Positions 10,288 through 23,954 of a stretch of 64,000 nt of DNA are shown piece by piece. The first letter of the stretch is position 1, and each line of letters starts with the position of its first letter. The DNA lies in NCBI RefSeq assembly GCF_021390675.1, contig NZ_JAJEJV010000004.1:3658001-3722000 (forward strand), written 5' to 3'. The notes below the pieces were generated by a model. It had not been told where the DNA came from. It was given only the letters and a program-made list of their open reading frames with translations, and searched no databases. The DNA is from Dyella sp. 2HG41-7 (GTDB taxonomy: Bacteria > Pseudomonadota > Gammaproteobacteria > Xanthomonadales > Rhodanobacteraceae). A program made the translations under genes and the position numbers.

Positions 10288-10306
10288 TCACCGGCTTGCC
10301 TGAAAT

Positions 10307-10337
10307 AAAAAAGCGCCCTGACTGGGCGCTTTTTTTA
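10307..10337 (+). terminator. Intrinsic terminator of the dehydrogenase operon
   Basis: AAAAGCGCCC-TGACT-GGGCGCTTTTTTT, about 20 bp past the E2 stop. Strong stem with a T-run; A-run on the other side gives some activity on the minus strand too. Confidence 0.9.
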
Positions 10338-10855
10338 TGTGCGCAACCTAGCGATGAAGTCCTCGACAGGGTGTAACGGCTCGAGGGCAAACCAACGCAA
10401 AAAATCTGAACCACGTCGCAGGGAAACAAACATCGGCAGTGCAATGCGGAGCGTGACTCAAAGGTGACGCGGCAGCTTTCTTTCGATGTCACACCATCAC
10501 AAAACCTTCATCTATCCGACGGCAGAGTAGAAATTACAGGGTCCAGGTCTAAAAAGTTGTCTGCTCGCCAAGCACGCTCGTCCATGCATACGTGGGTGAG
10601 GAAAGCTTGTGGTTTTTCTGCAGAACTTGGGGATTTACGGTTGCATTAGCTTGGCTGTCTAAGAGGCACACAGTTGCCTGATAGGCAGTCCTCAGCCCGT
10701 GGGGAGGGGTCGAGCTGTGCTGTCTTCTCGCGATCCAGGCGTATCGTCGCTCGCTATCGTTGCGATGTTAGACACGCGTCGTACTGGGATGCGCACCTAT
10801 CGCGTGTTGCTCGCTTTCGCCCGCATTAGCACTGTGCAGTCATAGAAAGGATGCC
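10338..10855. other. 518-bp gap before the lipid cluster
   Basis: No convincing gene. By eye it is less GC-rich than the flanking operons. It must hold the promoter of the following desaturase gene; a TTGCAT-like hexamer occurs near 10641 but no confident -35/-10 pair can be named. The last bases give AAAGG just before the desaturase ATG. Confidence 0.6.
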
Positions 10856-11818
10856 ATGATGTATTCCGCGCTCACGGAGGTCGACGCGTTTCTTGCTGCA
10901 GTCGATGCCGAGCCGCATACCAAGCGAGCCCGCGCCATTCTGCGGCAACACCCTGAAGTGAAACGCCTGCTAGGTCCAAGTGCGTGGACCATGCTGCTCA
11001 CCGTGACGCTCGTCGCAGCGCAAGTAACTATCGCACTTTGGATTCACCGGGCACCATGGTGGCTGCTGGCACTGATTGCCTACACGATCGGCGCCGTCAT
11101 TAACTGTGCCGTGCTGAACATGATCCATGAGGCATGCCACAACCTCATCTTCCGCTCGACGAAGTGGAATCGTTTCGCCGCCTATGTCGCCAACCTCGGC
11201 GCGTTCTCGCCCTATGTAGAGACGTTCTATCACTACCACTTACCGCACCATCGTTACTTGGGTAACTACGACCGCGACATGACGATGGCAAGCGACTGGG
11301 AGGCACGCTGGGTTGGCCGCAGCATCTTGCGCAAAGCGCTTTGGTTTCTGTTCTTTCCGATGATCTATCCGTTTCGTGTGGCGCGGTCGAACTTACGCAA
11401 ACCGGCTCGTCATCGATTGCTATTGAACTTTGGCATTCAACTGACCTGGCTCTGCCTGCTCTTTTATTTGGGCGGCTGGCCTGCCATCGCTTACATGATG
11501 TTGTCGTTCTACTTCCACTTTGGCTTGCATCCGCTCAATGCAATCGCCTTACAAGAGCATTTTTTCGTCCAGCACGGCGAAGAGAGCTACAGCTATTACG
11601 GCATCGGCAATTGGATCACGTTCAATGCAGGCTACCACGTCGAACACCACGACATGCCGTTCATTCCGTGGTTTCGACTGCCTGCGCTCAAACGCGCGGC
11701 GCCCGAGTTCTATCGGGGGCGGCACAGCTATCAGTCCTGGACAGGACTGATTCTACGTTTCGTCTTTGATCGTCGCTGGAGCCTGTGGGCTCGCGTTGCA
11801 CGGTCACGCGTCAACTGA
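10856..11818 (+). CDS. Membrane fatty acid desaturase, sphingolipid delta4-desaturase (DEGS)-like
   Basis: 320 residues with several hydrophobic helices and the three histidine boxes of membrane di-iron desaturases: HEACH at 91-95, HLPHH at 128-132, HVEHH at 261-265. The third box region, ESYSYYG...NAGYHVEHHDMPFIP, followed by RLP and a PEFY segment, is what the eukaryotic dihydroceramide delta4-desaturase family shows, rather than acyl-CoA or acyl-lipid DesA types. Expected to act on a lipid acyl or long-chain-base chain in the inner membrane using O2. It starts an apparent four-gene run with an aminotransferase, a Pcs-like transferase and a phosphatase. The true substrate is unknown. Confidence 0.85.
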   Translation: MMYSALTEVDAFLAAVDAEPHTKRARAILRQHPEVKRLLGPSAWTMLLTVTLVAAQVTIALWIHRAPWWLLALIAYTIGAVINCAVLNMIHEACHNLIFRSTKWNRFAAYVANLGAFSPYVETFYHYHLPHHRYLGNYDRDMTMASDWEARWVGRSILRKALWFLFFPMIYPFRVARSNLRKPARHRLLLNFGIQLTWLCLLFYLGGWPAIAYMMLSFYFHFGLHPLNAIALQEHFFVQHGEESYSYYGIGNWITFNAGYHVEHHDMPFIPWFRLPALKRAAPEFYRGRHSYQSWTGLILRFVFDRRWSLWARVARSRVN

Positions 11819-11886
11819 CAAGAAAAGGTATTTCGCGCACGGCTATTCCTCGAAACATCCATAACAGCAACCAACGGGGGATCACG

Positions 11887-13221
11887 ATGAACCTGACTGT
11901 GGTGAACGAGCAGATCCTTGCACAGCCGAAGGGGGACGCGAGCACGGAAGACTCTGCACTGGCCTATCCAGTCGCGGCGCTTCCCAAATTTGTCTCGGCC
12001 GAAGGTTGCTATCTCGTCGAAGCGAACGGCATGCGCTATTTGGACGGCTGTGCGGGCACGTTCAACGTCAATCTGGGATACGGGCATCCCGCAGTGACAC
12101 GCGCAGTGAGCGACGTCCTGTCGACAGGGCTGTTACATCTATCCAGTTCGTTTCAACACCCCGAAGTAGAAGCCGCAGCACGCGCATTGGTAGATGTCGC
12201 ACCTCGCGGCTTAACGCATTGCCACTTCAAAGGTTCGACAGGTGGCAGCACCGCGGTAGAACAAGCTATTCGTCACGCGTGGGCCGCGACTGGCAAGCGA
12301 AGCTTGATAACGTTTCGCGCAGGACACCATGGCCAGACCATTGCGACGACCAGCGTGTCCGGCATGCCATTTAGATGTAACAGACTGCCGATATCGCCCC
12401 TGCCGGCGGTGCATGTGGATCCGCCGGATTGCTATCGCTGCCGCTGGCACCGCGAGCCCAATACGTGTCATTTGGAATGCATCGATGCGATTGAGCATGC
12501 CGTCGACGCAGCGCCGACGGGCGAGAACGATACGGCAGCGTTCGTCGGGGAACCCATTTTGGGTGCCGGCGGCGGGATCGCACCGCCCAAACATTGGTGG
12601 GCGGCGCTGCATAGCCGCCTGCGTCGACGAAACGTGTTGCTGGTGCTGGATGAAATCCAGACTTTTGGCCGAACCGGTTCGTTCTTTGCGGCCGACTATT
12701 ACGACGTCGAACCCGACATGATCGTCGTCAGCAAAGGTATCAGCGGCATCGGCGTTCCCGGCGCGGCCGGCGTACTGATGAAAGAGCCTTTGCGCCAATT
12801 GAACGCGGGAGAGCGATCGTTAACGTCGGCATCTTCCGTGATCTCCATGGCGGCAGTGCGTGCGACAGTGGATGTGATGCGCACGCCAGGCTTCTTCGAG
12901 TCCGTGCGATATGTCAGCGAGATTCTGGCTCATCGCCTGCAGTCGTTGCAGCGCGATTTCGCCTGCGTCGGCGTCGTCCGCGGATTTGGACTGATGACCG
13001 GCATCGAGTTGGTCAAAGACAGAACGAGCAAAGAACCTGATGTCGCGCTGGCTCATCGCGTCGTCGAGGAATGTTTGAAGAACGGCCTTCTGCTGCGCAT
13101 CAGCATGTATGACCGCGGCGCGTTCGTGAAGGTGAGGCCGCCACTCGTTATCAGCGAAGACGAAGTGCACGAATTGTGCGACGTACTTGGCTACTCTCTG
13201 AGGGCAGCATGCGAAGCGTAG
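11887..13221 (+). CDS. Class-III PLP-dependent aminotransferase
   Basis: 444 residues from the ATG that follows a GGGGG ribosome site. Landmarks: YLDGCAGTFNVNLGYGHP near the N-terminus, GSTGGSTAVEQAIRHA (PLP phosphate loop), FRAGHHGQT, the LVLDEIQTFGRTGS cofactor Asp region and the likely PLP lysine in VVSKGISG. A Cys-rich insert (PPDCYRCRWHREPNTCHLEC, about 175-195) is shared with a subset of omega-aminotransferases. Members act on omega-amines, amino alcohol phosphates or aldehydes. In this cluster it may make or remove an amine on a lipid or headgroup precursor; that is inference. Its end overlaps the next gene by 13 bases. Confidence 0.88.
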   Translation: MNLTVVNEQILAQPKGDASTEDSALAYPVAALPKFVSAEGCYLVEANGMRYLDGCAGTFNVNLGYGHPAVTRAVSDVLSTGLLHLSSSFQHPEVEAAARALVDVAPRGLTHCHFKGSTGGSTAVEQAIRHAWAATGKRSLITFRAGHHGQTIATTSVSGMPFRCNRLPISPLPAVHVDPPDCYRCRWHREPNTCHLECIDAIEHAVDAAPTGENDTAAFVGEPILGAGGGIAPPKHWWAALHSRLRRRNVLLVLDEIQTFGRTGSFFAADYYDVEPDMIVVSKGISGIGVPGAAGVLMKEPLRQLNAGERSLTSASSVISMAAVRATVDVMRTPGFFESVRYVSEILAHRLQSLQRDFACVGVVRGFGLMTGIELVKDRTSKEPDVALAHRVVEECLKNGLLLRISMYDRGAFVKVRPPLVISEDEVHELCDVLGYSLRAACEA

Positions 13222-13976
13222 CGCAAGCAAGCAGCAGCGGCGCTGCCGTTGTGACGCATTGGCAACGCATCTGCGCGATGATGGTTCACGCATATACCGC
13301 CGTAGGCGGTTTGCTGGCATTCCTTGCGTTGGTCGCGGCGGCAAATCGGCGTTTTGAAATCTGCCTAATGTTATTGGCGATCGCATTTGCCGTCGATGGG
13401 ACAGACGGATACTTTGCGCGCAGGCTGCACGTTCGCCGCGTGTTGCCTACCATCGACGGCGGCATACTGGATCTGGTCATCGACTTCATCACCTTTGCGG
13501 TGGCGCCCGTGTTCTTACTGTGGCAAGCGCACCTGCTTCCGCACCCTGGTCTTCTGTGGGCTAGCATCATTCTCTTCGCGGCGCAGTACGACTTTGCGAA
13601 CGTCCATCCGCTCAAGGATCGAGGCCTTTATACAGGGCTGCCCGCCCTTTGGAATGTCTACGCGTTTCACGTGTTTTATATCCATCCGCCGGAAACCGTA
13701 CAGATGGTCGTTATCCTTGTATTGGCGGGGCTGACGTTCGCCCCGGTGCACTTCATCTGCTTGTCGCGTTTACCGTTTCTGCGACGATTGAACGTGCTCG
13801 CCGCAGCCACCTATATAGCGGTTGTTTTGCCAATAACTCTGGGCATGGTGAGCGACGTACGAACATGGTCGATAGTGGCGTTGGCATACCCACTGTGGTA
13901 CTTGGGTTCTTCGCTCTGGGCCGACCGATGCTTTCGTAAGGGACGATTGCCGTTAGCGCAGCTATCCGAGACATGA
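13209..13976 (+). CDS. pcs: CDP-alcohol phosphatidyltransferase, phosphatidylcholine-synthase-like
   Basis: 255 residues, about eight hydrophobic segments. The start at 13209 follows GAGGGC and overlaps the aminotransferase end. The catalytic motif is D66-G-x2-A-R-x12-G-x3-D-x3-D92; the 12-residue spacer in place of the usual 8 is the form known for bacterial phosphatidylcholine synthases. The later part (LYTGLPALWNVYAFHVFYI, then LAGLTFAPVHF) also looks like Pcs. Pcs joins choline to CDP-diacylglycerol in the inner membrane. Whether choline or another alcohol is used here is open, given the aminotransferase and phosphatase beside it. Confidence 0.82.
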   Translation: MRSVAQASSSGAAVVTHWQRICAMMVHAYTAVGGLLAFLALVAAANRRFEICLMLLAIAFAVDGTDGYFARRLHVRRVLPTIDGGILDLVIDFITFAVAPVFLLWQAHLLPHPGLLWASIILFAAQYDFANVHPLKDRGLYTGLPALWNVYAFHVFYIHPPETVQMVVILVLAGLTFAPVHFICLSRLPFLRRLNVLAAATYIAVVLPITLGMVSDVRTWSIVALAYPLWYLGSSLWADRCFRKGRLPLAQLSET

Positions 13977-13999
13977 GTCAGGAGAAAAGGAACCGACGG

Positions 14000-14671
14000 A
14001 TGCACATAGACGCTGTTATTTTCGACATGGACGGCCTGATGGTCGATACCGAAAACTTGGCGATCGAGGCATGGCAAGCCGCTGCACAAGCTCACGGAGT
14101 CGAGATGCCTCGCGCGGTCTGTACCGCCTTGATCGGGTTAAATCAACGCGATTCGGAACGGTTCATTGCCAACGCACTTGGCCCGGCATTTCCGCTTGAG
14201 GCCGTTCGCGACGACTTTCTTCATCGCCTCCAACAACGCGTGGATTCCGGCGACGTGCTCGCCAAGCCGGGCCTGCACGAACTGCTGGATTTCCTCGAAG
14301 AACATGCCATTCCCAAAGCCGTAGCTACCTCCGCGGAACGTGGCGAGGCACGCAAGAAACTTGAAGCGGTGCACGTATTACATCGATTTCCGGTACTCGC
14401 CACGTCGGATCAAGTGCATCGCGGCAAACCCGCGCCCGATCTATTCCTGCTTGCCGCCGAACGTTTGGGTGTGTCGCCCGTGCGCTGCACTGTCCTGGAG
14501 GATTCGGAGGCTGGCATTAAGGCCGCTGCTGCTGCCGGAATGCGCGCCATTTTAGTACCGGACATCAAACATCCGTCACCAGATGTGGCGGCCATGGCAG
14601 CACATATCTGTCCTTCACTGGTACATGTGCGGGAGGTGCTGGCGCGCGAGAAGGTGCCGACGGTGACATAG
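14000..14671 (+). CDS. HAD-superfamily phosphatase (beta-phosphoglucomutase/GPP-like)
   Basis: 223 residues from the ATG preceded by AGGAGAAAAGG; an upstream in-frame ATG at 13973 overlaps the Pcs stop as ATGA. HAD motif I is FDMDGLMVDTE, motif II lies in VATSAERGEARK, motif III in the HRGKPAPDLFL lysine and motif IV is VLEDSEAGIKAA. The cap domain between I and II is of the C1 helical type. It should dephosphorylate a small phosphorylated sugar, polyol or amino alcohol. Closest context is the Pcs-like gene, suggesting release of a free alcohol for headgroup transfer or turnover of a phospho-intermediate. Confidence 0.87.
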   Translation: MHIDAVIFDMDGLMVDTENLAIEAWQAAAQAHGVEMPRAVCTALIGLNQRDSERFIANALGPAFPLEAVRDDFLHRLQQRVDSGDVLAKPGLHELLDFLEEHAIPKAVATSAERGEARKKLEAVHVLHRFPVLATSDQVHRGKPAPDLFLLAAERLGVSPVRCTVLEDSEAGIKAAAAAGMRAILVPDIKHPSPDVAAMAAHICPSLVHVREVLAREKVPTVT

Positions 14672-14732
14672 CGATTCAGATGCGTGACCGCGGCACGCAA
14701 TATTCGCGAACGTCGCATATTGCATGCTGCGA

Positions 14733-16115
14733 TCACGCGTTTTTCGTGACTGCAGCCATCGGCAAACGAATAGACACTTCAAGGCCGCCGCCGTCCGCGT
14801 TTTTCGCGACCACCTGACCGTCGTGCGCTTGTATCACACGCTGAACGATAGCCAAGCCAAGGCCATGACCGTCAGCCTGCGCTGCATTGCTACCGCGAAA
14901 AAATGGTCGAAATAACAACTCAAGTTCTTCTAAAGGAACGCCAGGACCCTGATCGCGAATGCCCACCACGATGTGCTGATCGTCGTGCGCAATGGTCATC
15001 TTTACAATGCTGCCTTGCGGACTGAACTTAATGGCGTTCGCTAACACGTTGTCCAAAGCTCGTTCCAGCAAAATGCCGCTTCCTTGCACCACGGCAGATT
15101 CATCGCCAATTACCTGCAACGTGATCTTGCGCGCCTGAGCATCGATTCGTGCCGCTTCCGCGCGATCGTTGACAACTTCCGAGATATCGACGGGTTCACG
15201 CATCATTCCTGGCAAACCGCTTTCCAATCTGGATAACGCCAGCATTTCCGACGTGATGCGATCCATACGCACGATTTCTCGTTCGGCGCGCGCGAAATGC
15301 TCGGCCGCATCACGCGAATTCGCGCTGTGCTGTGTCAAGTCGAGTATTAGATGAAGACGCGCCAAAGGCGAGCGTAGTTCGTGCGAGAGATCCTGCAATA
15401 CGCTGCGCTCATGCGTTACTAGCGTATCGATACGTTCCGCCATGCTATTGAAATCGCGTGCAAGCTGTCCGAGATCATCCTGCGCATTACTCCAGCGCCG
15501 ATCGACACGCGTGGCGAACTCGCCCGTCGCCATTTTCCGCGTTGCGGCGCGCATGGCTTCCACGGGCCGCGACACGCTGCGCGCCACCCACCAACCGATG
15601 ATGCCGATAGTCAACAACGAAAGTGCAAGCTGCACGGCGAGCAGAATCTTTTCGCGCGTGCGCGGCGGAATGCGCGTACGCGAACTGCTTACCGCAACAA
15701 GTTGACGCGCTTGACCATCTGGACCGGTAACGTTCTGCACGGCGATGTAGAAGCCGGGCCAAGGACGCAACGCCACATCGTGACCGGACGAGAGCCAGTC
15801 GGGAATCATGTGACGAACGGGCGATGGAAAGCGCACCTCACGCAACGGCTCGCCACCTTGGTACAGCGTGGCGTCCACGCCTTCCTCGCGCTTCTGTCTT
15901 ATCCAATCATCCAGACCGTTGTTGCCGCTTTTTTCGAACGCATCGTTTGCTGATTGCGCCATGGCAGGCCAATCGAAATCCTGTTGCATGGAGAAATCAA
16001 GGAAACTGCGCGTGAGCAAACTCCCCAACATCAGCACCAGCAAGTTGGCGATGCACACGGAAATCAGCAAACGCCAGAACAGTGGACTACGAAACGGGCT
16101 TTTGAAGGTCGTCAT
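14733..16115 (-). CDS. Sensor histidine kinase, CpxA-like
   Basis: 460 residues. Start overlaps the regulator stop as ATGA. Two transmembrane helices (about 12-35 and 165-190) flank a periplasmic sensor of roughly 130 residues, then HAMP, the HisKA dimerisation helix with LQDLSHELRSPLARLH, and an HATPase domain with DNVLANAIKFS and DQGPGVP, GHGLGLAI. It pairs with the OmpR-type regulator just upstream. The divergent Spy/CpxP-like gene with a Cpx-type box makes an envelope-stress role likely. Confidence 0.92.
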   Translation of the reverse strand: MTTFKSPFRSPLFWRLLISVCIANLLVLMLGSLLTRSFLDFSMQQDFDWPAMAQSANDAFEKSGNNGLDDWIRQKREEGVDATLYQGGEPLREVRFPSPVRHMIPDWLSSGHDVALRPWPGFYIAVQNVTGPDGQARQLVAVSSSRTRIPPRTREKILLAVQLALSLLTIGIIGWWVARSVSRPVEAMRAATRKMATGEFATRVDRRWSNAQDDLGQLARDFNSMAERIDTLVTHERSVLQDLSHELRSPLARLHLILDLTQHSANSRDAAEHFARAEREIVRMDRITSEMLALSRLESGLPGMMREPVDISEVVNDRAEAARIDAQARKITLQVIGDESAVVQGSGILLERALDNVLANAIKFSPQGSIVKMTIAHDDQHIVVGIRDQGPGVPLEELELLFRPFFRGSNAAQADGHGLGLAIVQRVIQAHDGQVVAKNADGGGLEVSIRLPMAAVTKNA

Positions 16116-23878: not shown

Positions 23879-23954
23879 TGGTGCCGACAGTCTGACTCGA
23901 ACAGACGACCTACCGCTTACAAGGCGGTTGCTCTACCAACTGAGCTATGCCGGC
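23879..23954 (-). tRNA. tRNA-Thr (anticodon TGT)
   Basis: 76 bases including an encoded CCA. Acceptor GCCGGCA pairs with TGTCGGC (one G-T); D-arm with AGCTCAGTTGGTAGAGC; anticodon arm CCGCC-TTGTAAG-GCGG gives anticodon TGT; T-arm has GTTCGAGTC. Reads on the minus strand and ends at the shared terminator. Confidence 0.95.

Follow-up and report, generated by a model that had tools for sequence, protein, structure and literature searches.

What product do four neighbouring genes of the gammaproteobacterium Dyella sp. 2HG41-7 serve, and how did they come to lie together? The genes encode a membrane desaturase (DES), a class III aminotransferase (AT), a phosphatidylcholine-synthase-like cytidine diphosphate (CDP)-alcohol transferase (PCS) and a HAD phosphatase (HAD), and they lie in a window of 64,000 nucleotides (contig NZ_JAJEJV010000004.1, positions 3,658,001 to 3,722,000; positions below are those of the window). 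An initial annotation, made from the letters alone, proposed a cassette for an unusual lipid; that reading is kept here, but it missed a link to azasugar synthesis. The analysis suggests, with a probability of roughly 45%, that the cassette is a transferable aminophospholipid pathway.

The four reading frames are confirmed as genes that share one direction and are coupled. Pfam searches agree with the enzyme family initially given to each of them, namely FA_desaturase and Lipid_DES for DES, Aminotran_3 for AT, CDP-OH_P_transf for PCS (barely, with 22.6 bits against a cut-off of 22) and HAD_2 for HAD. The 68-bp gap between DES and AT and the 13-bp overlap of AT and PCS stand as first described; a 23-bp gap between PCS and HAD does not, as HAD most likely starts at the ATG at 13973 and overlaps the PCS stop by four bases (ATGA).

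Relatives of DES were collected by scanning genome contigs with a four-row DES alignment, which gave 324 stretches and 250 relatives, the best 80 of which were kept; this pattern scan misses relatives without the two scanned peptides. An earlier contig scan, which used DES by itself, gave 12 stretches that fitted the pattern, none of them a relative. The best 80 together with loci L036–L038 make up a set of 83 DES-relative loci, where short loci lower the neighbour counts. Locus L044, from a metagenome-assembled genome (MAG) of an uncultured Phenylobacterium, contains the complete set of four genes, arranged and oriented as in the window, with identities over the aligned parts of 66% (DES; 46% for the next-best relative), 68% (AT), 59% (PCS) and 67% (HAD), and the ATGA overlap of PCS and HAD is present as well. 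Its flanking genes, judged by eye to encode a helicase and an M20-type peptidase, are unlike those of the window, and the G+C content at third codon positions (GC3) of the four genes (0.90–0.92) is close to that of the flanks (0.93–0.94), so the block shows no sign of being a mis-binned piece. Since L044 comes from another class and keeps the order between other flanks, the genes belong together, as had been claimed. The joint search for the four proteins in other genomes thus found homologues that are not always apart, with a single second carrier. At E ≤ 1e-8, homologues of AT and of PCS were each found in one of the 83 loci (L044), and homologues of HAD in two (L044 and L056); a laxer blastp search (E ≤ 1e-3, 80 loci) revealed an additional weak Pcs-like match in L058 (5e-4) and HAD matches in L056, L067, L079 and L105.

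The most informative part of the cassette is AT, which is kin to the phosphoketose aminotransferases of azasugar synthesis. The best two matches listed in a search of plasmids, a near-copy being set aside, are enzymes of Paenibacillus polymyxa and Streptomyces, both with 39% identity. The P. polymyxa locus has the azasugar arrangement (major facilitator superfamily (MFS) transporter, aminotransferase, GutB1, HAD phosphatase); strain DSM 365 of this species, which differs from the strain of the plasmid match, is named as an azasugar producer in the accessible part of PMC8382821. The Streptomyces relative adjoins an alcohol dehydrogenase gene, with no annotated phosphatase among the neighbours shown, and an azasugar role for it would be a guess. 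A Streptomyces plasmid cluster (L022:7280-13421) comprises a glycogen-synthase-like gene, an epimerase, an azasugar-type aminotransferase, an alcohol dehydrogenase and a glycosyltransferase, and its product is possibly a glycosylated amino-polyol.

In trees of class III enzymes, the AT proteins of the window and L044 group with the P. polymyxa and Streptomyces enzymes (100/99 with 38 rows, 100/98 with 45 rows); these trees are without RtxA and most characterised azasugar enzymes, and their azasugar references are the P. polymyxa cluster enzyme and the Streptomyces relative. Fourteen residues are common to the four proteins and rare in a comparison set of 41 further class III enzymes, where each occurs in 5% or less, and none of 820 control pairs of other enzymes swapped in reached 14 (maximum 5); a smaller earlier enzyme set gave 12 common residues, with none of 561 control pairs reaching that number (maximum 2). 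The fourteen include Thr122 (Glu or Asp in 37 of the 41 others), His147 (Tyr, Trp or Phe in 40 of the 41), Lys415 and Arg417. In an alignment to dialkylglycine decarboxylase, His147 coincides with a Trp and Lys415 with an Arg; in that enzyme we take the Trp to stack on the cofactor and the Arg to hold the substrate carboxylate. The Cys-rich insert of AT, initially listed as a sign of a lipid enzyme, is also present in the Paenibacillus and Streptomyces relatives and is no evidence for a lipid substrate. AlphaFold2 modelling from two-row alignments gave unusable structures (mean pLDDT 36.0 for AT and 47.9 for PCS).

According to the accessible part of PMC8382821, the aminotransferase of azasugar synthesis acts on a phosphoketose and is followed by a phosphatase, which is of HAD type in Paenibacillus. 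The best NCBIfam matches of the cassette HAD, all below the cut-offs, are the phosphatase part of bifunctional MtlD, the beta-phosphoglucomutase models (PGMB, bPGM) and the hexitol phosphatase HxpB, and the P. polymyxa phosphatase matches the same families. The cassette thus resembles the gabT1-phosphatase-gutB1 cluster of 1-deoxynojirimycin-type azasugars in the clade of its aminotransferase and the families of its phosphatase; it differs in having a phospholipid transferase and a desaturase and in lacking the aminopolyol dehydrogenase. Searches of the window and L044 revealed neither a homologue of that dehydrogenase, GutB1 (E ≤ 1e-3), nor one of the azasugar-type MFS transporter. The azasugar consensus SGNXFRXXXFPNXXXXXXXLXVPXPYCXRC, taken from the same part of PMC8382821, is matched by the P. 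polymyxa enzyme and only in part by AT, in which SG, FR, P, C and RC are present and N, F, N, P and Y are replaced; the Streptomyces enzyme departs from it too. Given the missing GutB1 and the partial match, the cassette was ruled out as an azasugar cluster proper. The kinship of AT makes an amino-polyol head more likely, with HAD acting before the transfer.

PCS matches five NCBIfam Pcs models with E-values of 4e-37 at best, yet its scores (99–128 bits) are far under the cut-offs (300–440), and the L044 protein likewise scores below them. Five references were used for comparison; two lack an annotation, and the other three are labelled Pcs or phosphatidylcholine/phosphatidylserine synthase. 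Of the positions fixed in these references, PCS keeps 25, including every residue of the CDP-alcohol motif (consensus form as given in the accessible part of PMC8633023), and the motif spacing is that of phosphatidylcholine synthases, as the initial annotation had noticed. Eight fixed positions (32, 101, 125, 135, 141, 144, 185 and 254) are altered in both cassettes, which favours the non-choline head suggested at the outset; we infer that PCS is probably a Pcs relative with a different acceptor. A comparison of acceptor sites via the citrate-binding residues of MjPSS was dropped, as the accessible part of PMC8633023 describes these residues as not conserved and without effect.

The Lipid_DES match of DES (33.3 bits against a cut-off of 23) is shared by the four relatives scanned, and residues H91, H95, H128, H131, H132, H261, H264 and H265 are invariant in a six-row alignment, which bears out the three His boxes of sphingolipid-desaturase type recognised earlier. 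With these boxes and the Lipid_DES and FA_desaturase domains, DES resembles the DEGS sphingolipid delta-4 desaturases; it differs in that its identity to bacterial relatives besides L044 is 37–46% and that no serine palmitoyltransferase was found in the carrier genomes. In a quick tree with flagged long branches and a weak root, the cassette DES forms a separate long branch. The search for serine palmitoyltransferase, made with the synthase of locus L037, found none in the Dyella genome (G000) or in the L044 MAG, which may be incomplete; the alpha-oxoamine synthases that it returned were BioF and Kbl from G000 and BioF from the MAG, all three above the cut-offs of those families, with biotin genes recognised by eye near BioF. 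An ordinary sphingolipid pathway via serine palmitoyltransferase was rejected on this ground. The substrate of DES may be either a chain of the predicted phospholipid or a ceramide-like product of another route.

Near the DES relatives, homologues of an alpha-oxoamine synthase were found at 31 of the 83 loci, of a 400-aa protein of L037 at 26 and of a fatty-acid hydroxylase at 30; L037 supplied the queries, and without it the counts are 30, 25 and 29 of 82. Loci L037 (6707-10883) and L038 (6706-10964), from one family, carry a row of an alpha-oxoamine synthase, the 400-aa protein without a Pfam match, a sphingolipid-type desaturase and a fatty-acid hydroxylase; similar neighbours occur in many Verrucomicrobia loci, and the row may serve in bacteria to make ceramides that are unsaturated and hydroxylated. 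The L037 synthase reaches neither the BioF nor the serine-palmitoyltransferase cut-off, so the latter label would be a guess from context. At L036:9181-10577 and L105:8992-10307, a small open reading frame (116 and 118 aa), by eye similar to a diacylglycerol-kinase-type membrane protein, overlaps the 3' side of the desaturase gene.

The pathway proposed here starts from what the sequences show: the order of the genes and its recurrence in L044, the protein kinships, the intact catalytic motifs and the variable site described below; every substrate, the order of the steps and, above all, the target of DES are predicted. AT would aminate the keto group of a small phosphoketose; a first guess is the conversion of dihydroxyacetone phosphate to serinol phosphate, and fructose-6-phosphate or another ketose phosphate could also serve. 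HAD would strip the phosphate to give a free amino-polyol, which PCS would join to CDP-diacylglycerol, yielding a phosphatidyl-amino-polyol such as phosphatidylserinol, and DES would then desaturate or hydroxylate the lipid. Phosphatidylserinol is put forward because RtxA takes dihydroxyacetone phosphate to serinol (accessible part of PMC3222319). A further-reaching proposal is held only tentatively: the product may represent an undescribed phospholipid class, a phosphatidyl-amino-polyol whose head azasugar-type chemistry would derive from central sugar phosphates and whose tail a sphingolipid-type desaturase would alter. Such a membrane lipid would in effect be sphingolipid-like and need no serine palmitoyltransferase, and its pathway would pass from one bacterium to another. 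A literature search, with most subscription journals outside its reach and hence no proof of absence, found no mention of phosphatidylserinol and no paper that combines at least five of six terms standing for Pcs, aminotransferase, desaturase and phosphatase.

Several points weigh against an aminophospholipid pathway. There are two carriers only, one of them a MAG; the Streptomyces relative of AT is not a proven azasugar enzyme and AT itself follows the azasugar consensus in part; position 254 of PCS falls in a poorly aligned tail, and PCS could still use choline; DES is not needed by the scheme, and the lipid product is a prediction from the genes.

Among the other explanations, a sphingolipid-like lipid formed without serine palmitoyltransferase is unlikely. 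AT would here aminate a long-chain or polyol ketone, DES would desaturate the base at a delta-4 type position, PCS would attach a phospho head and HAD would trim a phosphate; the sphingolipid-desaturase domain of DES, the alpha-oxoamine synthase homologues near its relatives and the restriction of the carriers' own synthases found to BioF and Kbl fit this explanation, but the kinship of AT favours small phosphoketoses, the cassette is without an acyltransferase and the MAG may be incomplete. It is improbable, too, that PCS is an ordinary, diverged phosphatidylcholine synthase acting on choline, with AT, HAD and DES doing something else in the operon: the match to all five Pcs models and the intact motif and 25 fixed positions speak for it, whereas the low scores in both carriers and the eight altered positions speak against it, and the conserved four-gene order would be left unexplained.

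We likewise give little credence to a soluble bioactive amino-polyol, resembling an azasugar or, given a desaturase step, rhizobitoxine, or to a lipid-anchored form of it. In its favour, azasugar synthesis opens with two steps that AT and HAD resemble, and the rhizobitoxine pathway (rtxA, rtxC), as described in the accessible part of PMC3222319, makes serinol from dihydroxyacetone phosphate through an aminotransferase acting on a phosphoketose and a dephosphorylation, with a desaturase last; the likeness is one of concept, and AT is a single-domain protein of 444 aa whereas RtxA is of a two-domain type. The missing GutB1 and MFS homologues and the CDP-alcohol transferase, which indicates a lipid and has no counterpart in rhizobitoxine synthesis, argue against such a product. 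Chance neighbourhood of four unrelated genes deserves next to no weight and was rejected; as only L044 of the 83 loci has both AT and PCS homologues (E ≤ 1e-8), DES usually stands apart from them, but L044, in another class and between other flanks, keeps the order, the direction and the PCS/HAD overlap, and the four are not chance neighbours.

The cassette is rare among relatives of its host. DES was found at E ≤ 1e-10 in one of 233 family genomes and one of 369 class genomes, each time its own, and at E ≤ 1e-8 in 10 of 398 phylum genomes, the best three others having 38–39% identity. A Pcs-like gene was found in 14 of 61 relatives (E ≤ 1e-3), with a best match outside the own genome of 2e-25 (36%) and the others at 1.6e-6 or weaker. 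With at most four first-look candidates scored per genome, a two-row AT profile found one of 398 phylum genomes at E ≤ 1e-75, and AT reached E ≤ 1e-45 in 88 of 385 genomes of the class of genome G594, none better than 2.7e-56; that class was taken as Alphaproteobacteria because L037 groups with Beijerinckiaceae in the tree. In the family of L044, one of 129 genomes, its own, has AT at E ≤ 1e-60.

The cassette site (window 10343–14757) was compared across the genus, in 14 of 15 further genomes (L173–L186; G013 left out). Two have a near-empty site, where the stretch similar to the dehydrogenase E2 gene upstream and the one similar to the sensor gene lie 19 (L183) and 53 (L177) bases apart; four have 0.3–2.3 kb of other DNA there; and eight share parts of another block, about 4.2–4.7 kb for nearly all pairs, the sensor gene lying outside the fetched stretch in three of them. 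None of the 12 inserts longer than 100 bases resembles the cassette at the DNA level. Alignments on the E2 side stop at 10295–10357. The boundaries initially proposed agree with this: the terminator is that of the E2 gene, and the far-side neighbour is a convergent two-component sensor gene. The upstream gap is less GC-rich, as first noted (54.0%, against 57.6% for the cassette and 60.4% for the window); the GC3 of the cassette genes is 0.60–0.69, and since the sensor gene is as low (0.59), composition is a weak sign at most. Because DES occurs in one of 233 family genomes and two of 14 sisters have a near-empty site, the block looks acquired, in line with the initial annotation, and it most probably arrived at a site that varies within the genus.

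Coordinates of the cassette and its surroundings in the window.
Feature	Position	Strand	Remarks
DES, membrane desaturase, sphingolipid delta-4 type, three His boxes	10856..11818	+	PF00487, PF08557; 66% to L044
AT, class III aminotransferase, azasugar type, 444 aa, pyridoxal phosphate lysine K283	11887..13221	+	PF00202; 68% to L044
PCS, phosphatidylcholine-synthase-like CDP-alcohol transferase	13209..13976	+	PF01066; 59% to L044
HAD, sugar-phosphatase-type HAD hydrolase, ATGA overlap with PCS	13973..14671	+	PF13419; 67% to L044
PCS catalytic motif D63-xx-D66-G67-xx-A70-R71-x12-G84-xxx-D88-xxx-D92	13395..13484	+	kept in 7/7 aligned proteins
Upstream intergenic stretch of the cassette	10343..10855	not assigned	54% GC
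Terminator of the upstream dehydrogenase E2 gene	10307..10336	+	read from sequence; sister-genome similarity stops near here

A promoter scan found no promoter-like sites (2.2 expected) and no consensus promoter upstream of the cassette, and a terminator scan listed three terminator-like sites, all within genes (4.9 expected), the E2 terminator not among them. Repeats were short imperfect pairs, taken as chance, and the sole tRNA of the window lies at 23879–23954. In the Dyella genome as a whole, a single gene is Pcs-like, and AT is one of five class III aminotransferases.

If the proposed pathway is true, the heads of aminophospholipids would have a source beyond serine, ethanolamine and choline, and azasugar-type enzymes would have been reused for membrane lipids in a portable four-gene system; sphingolipid-type desaturases would then be active in bacteria without an evident sphingolipid pathway.

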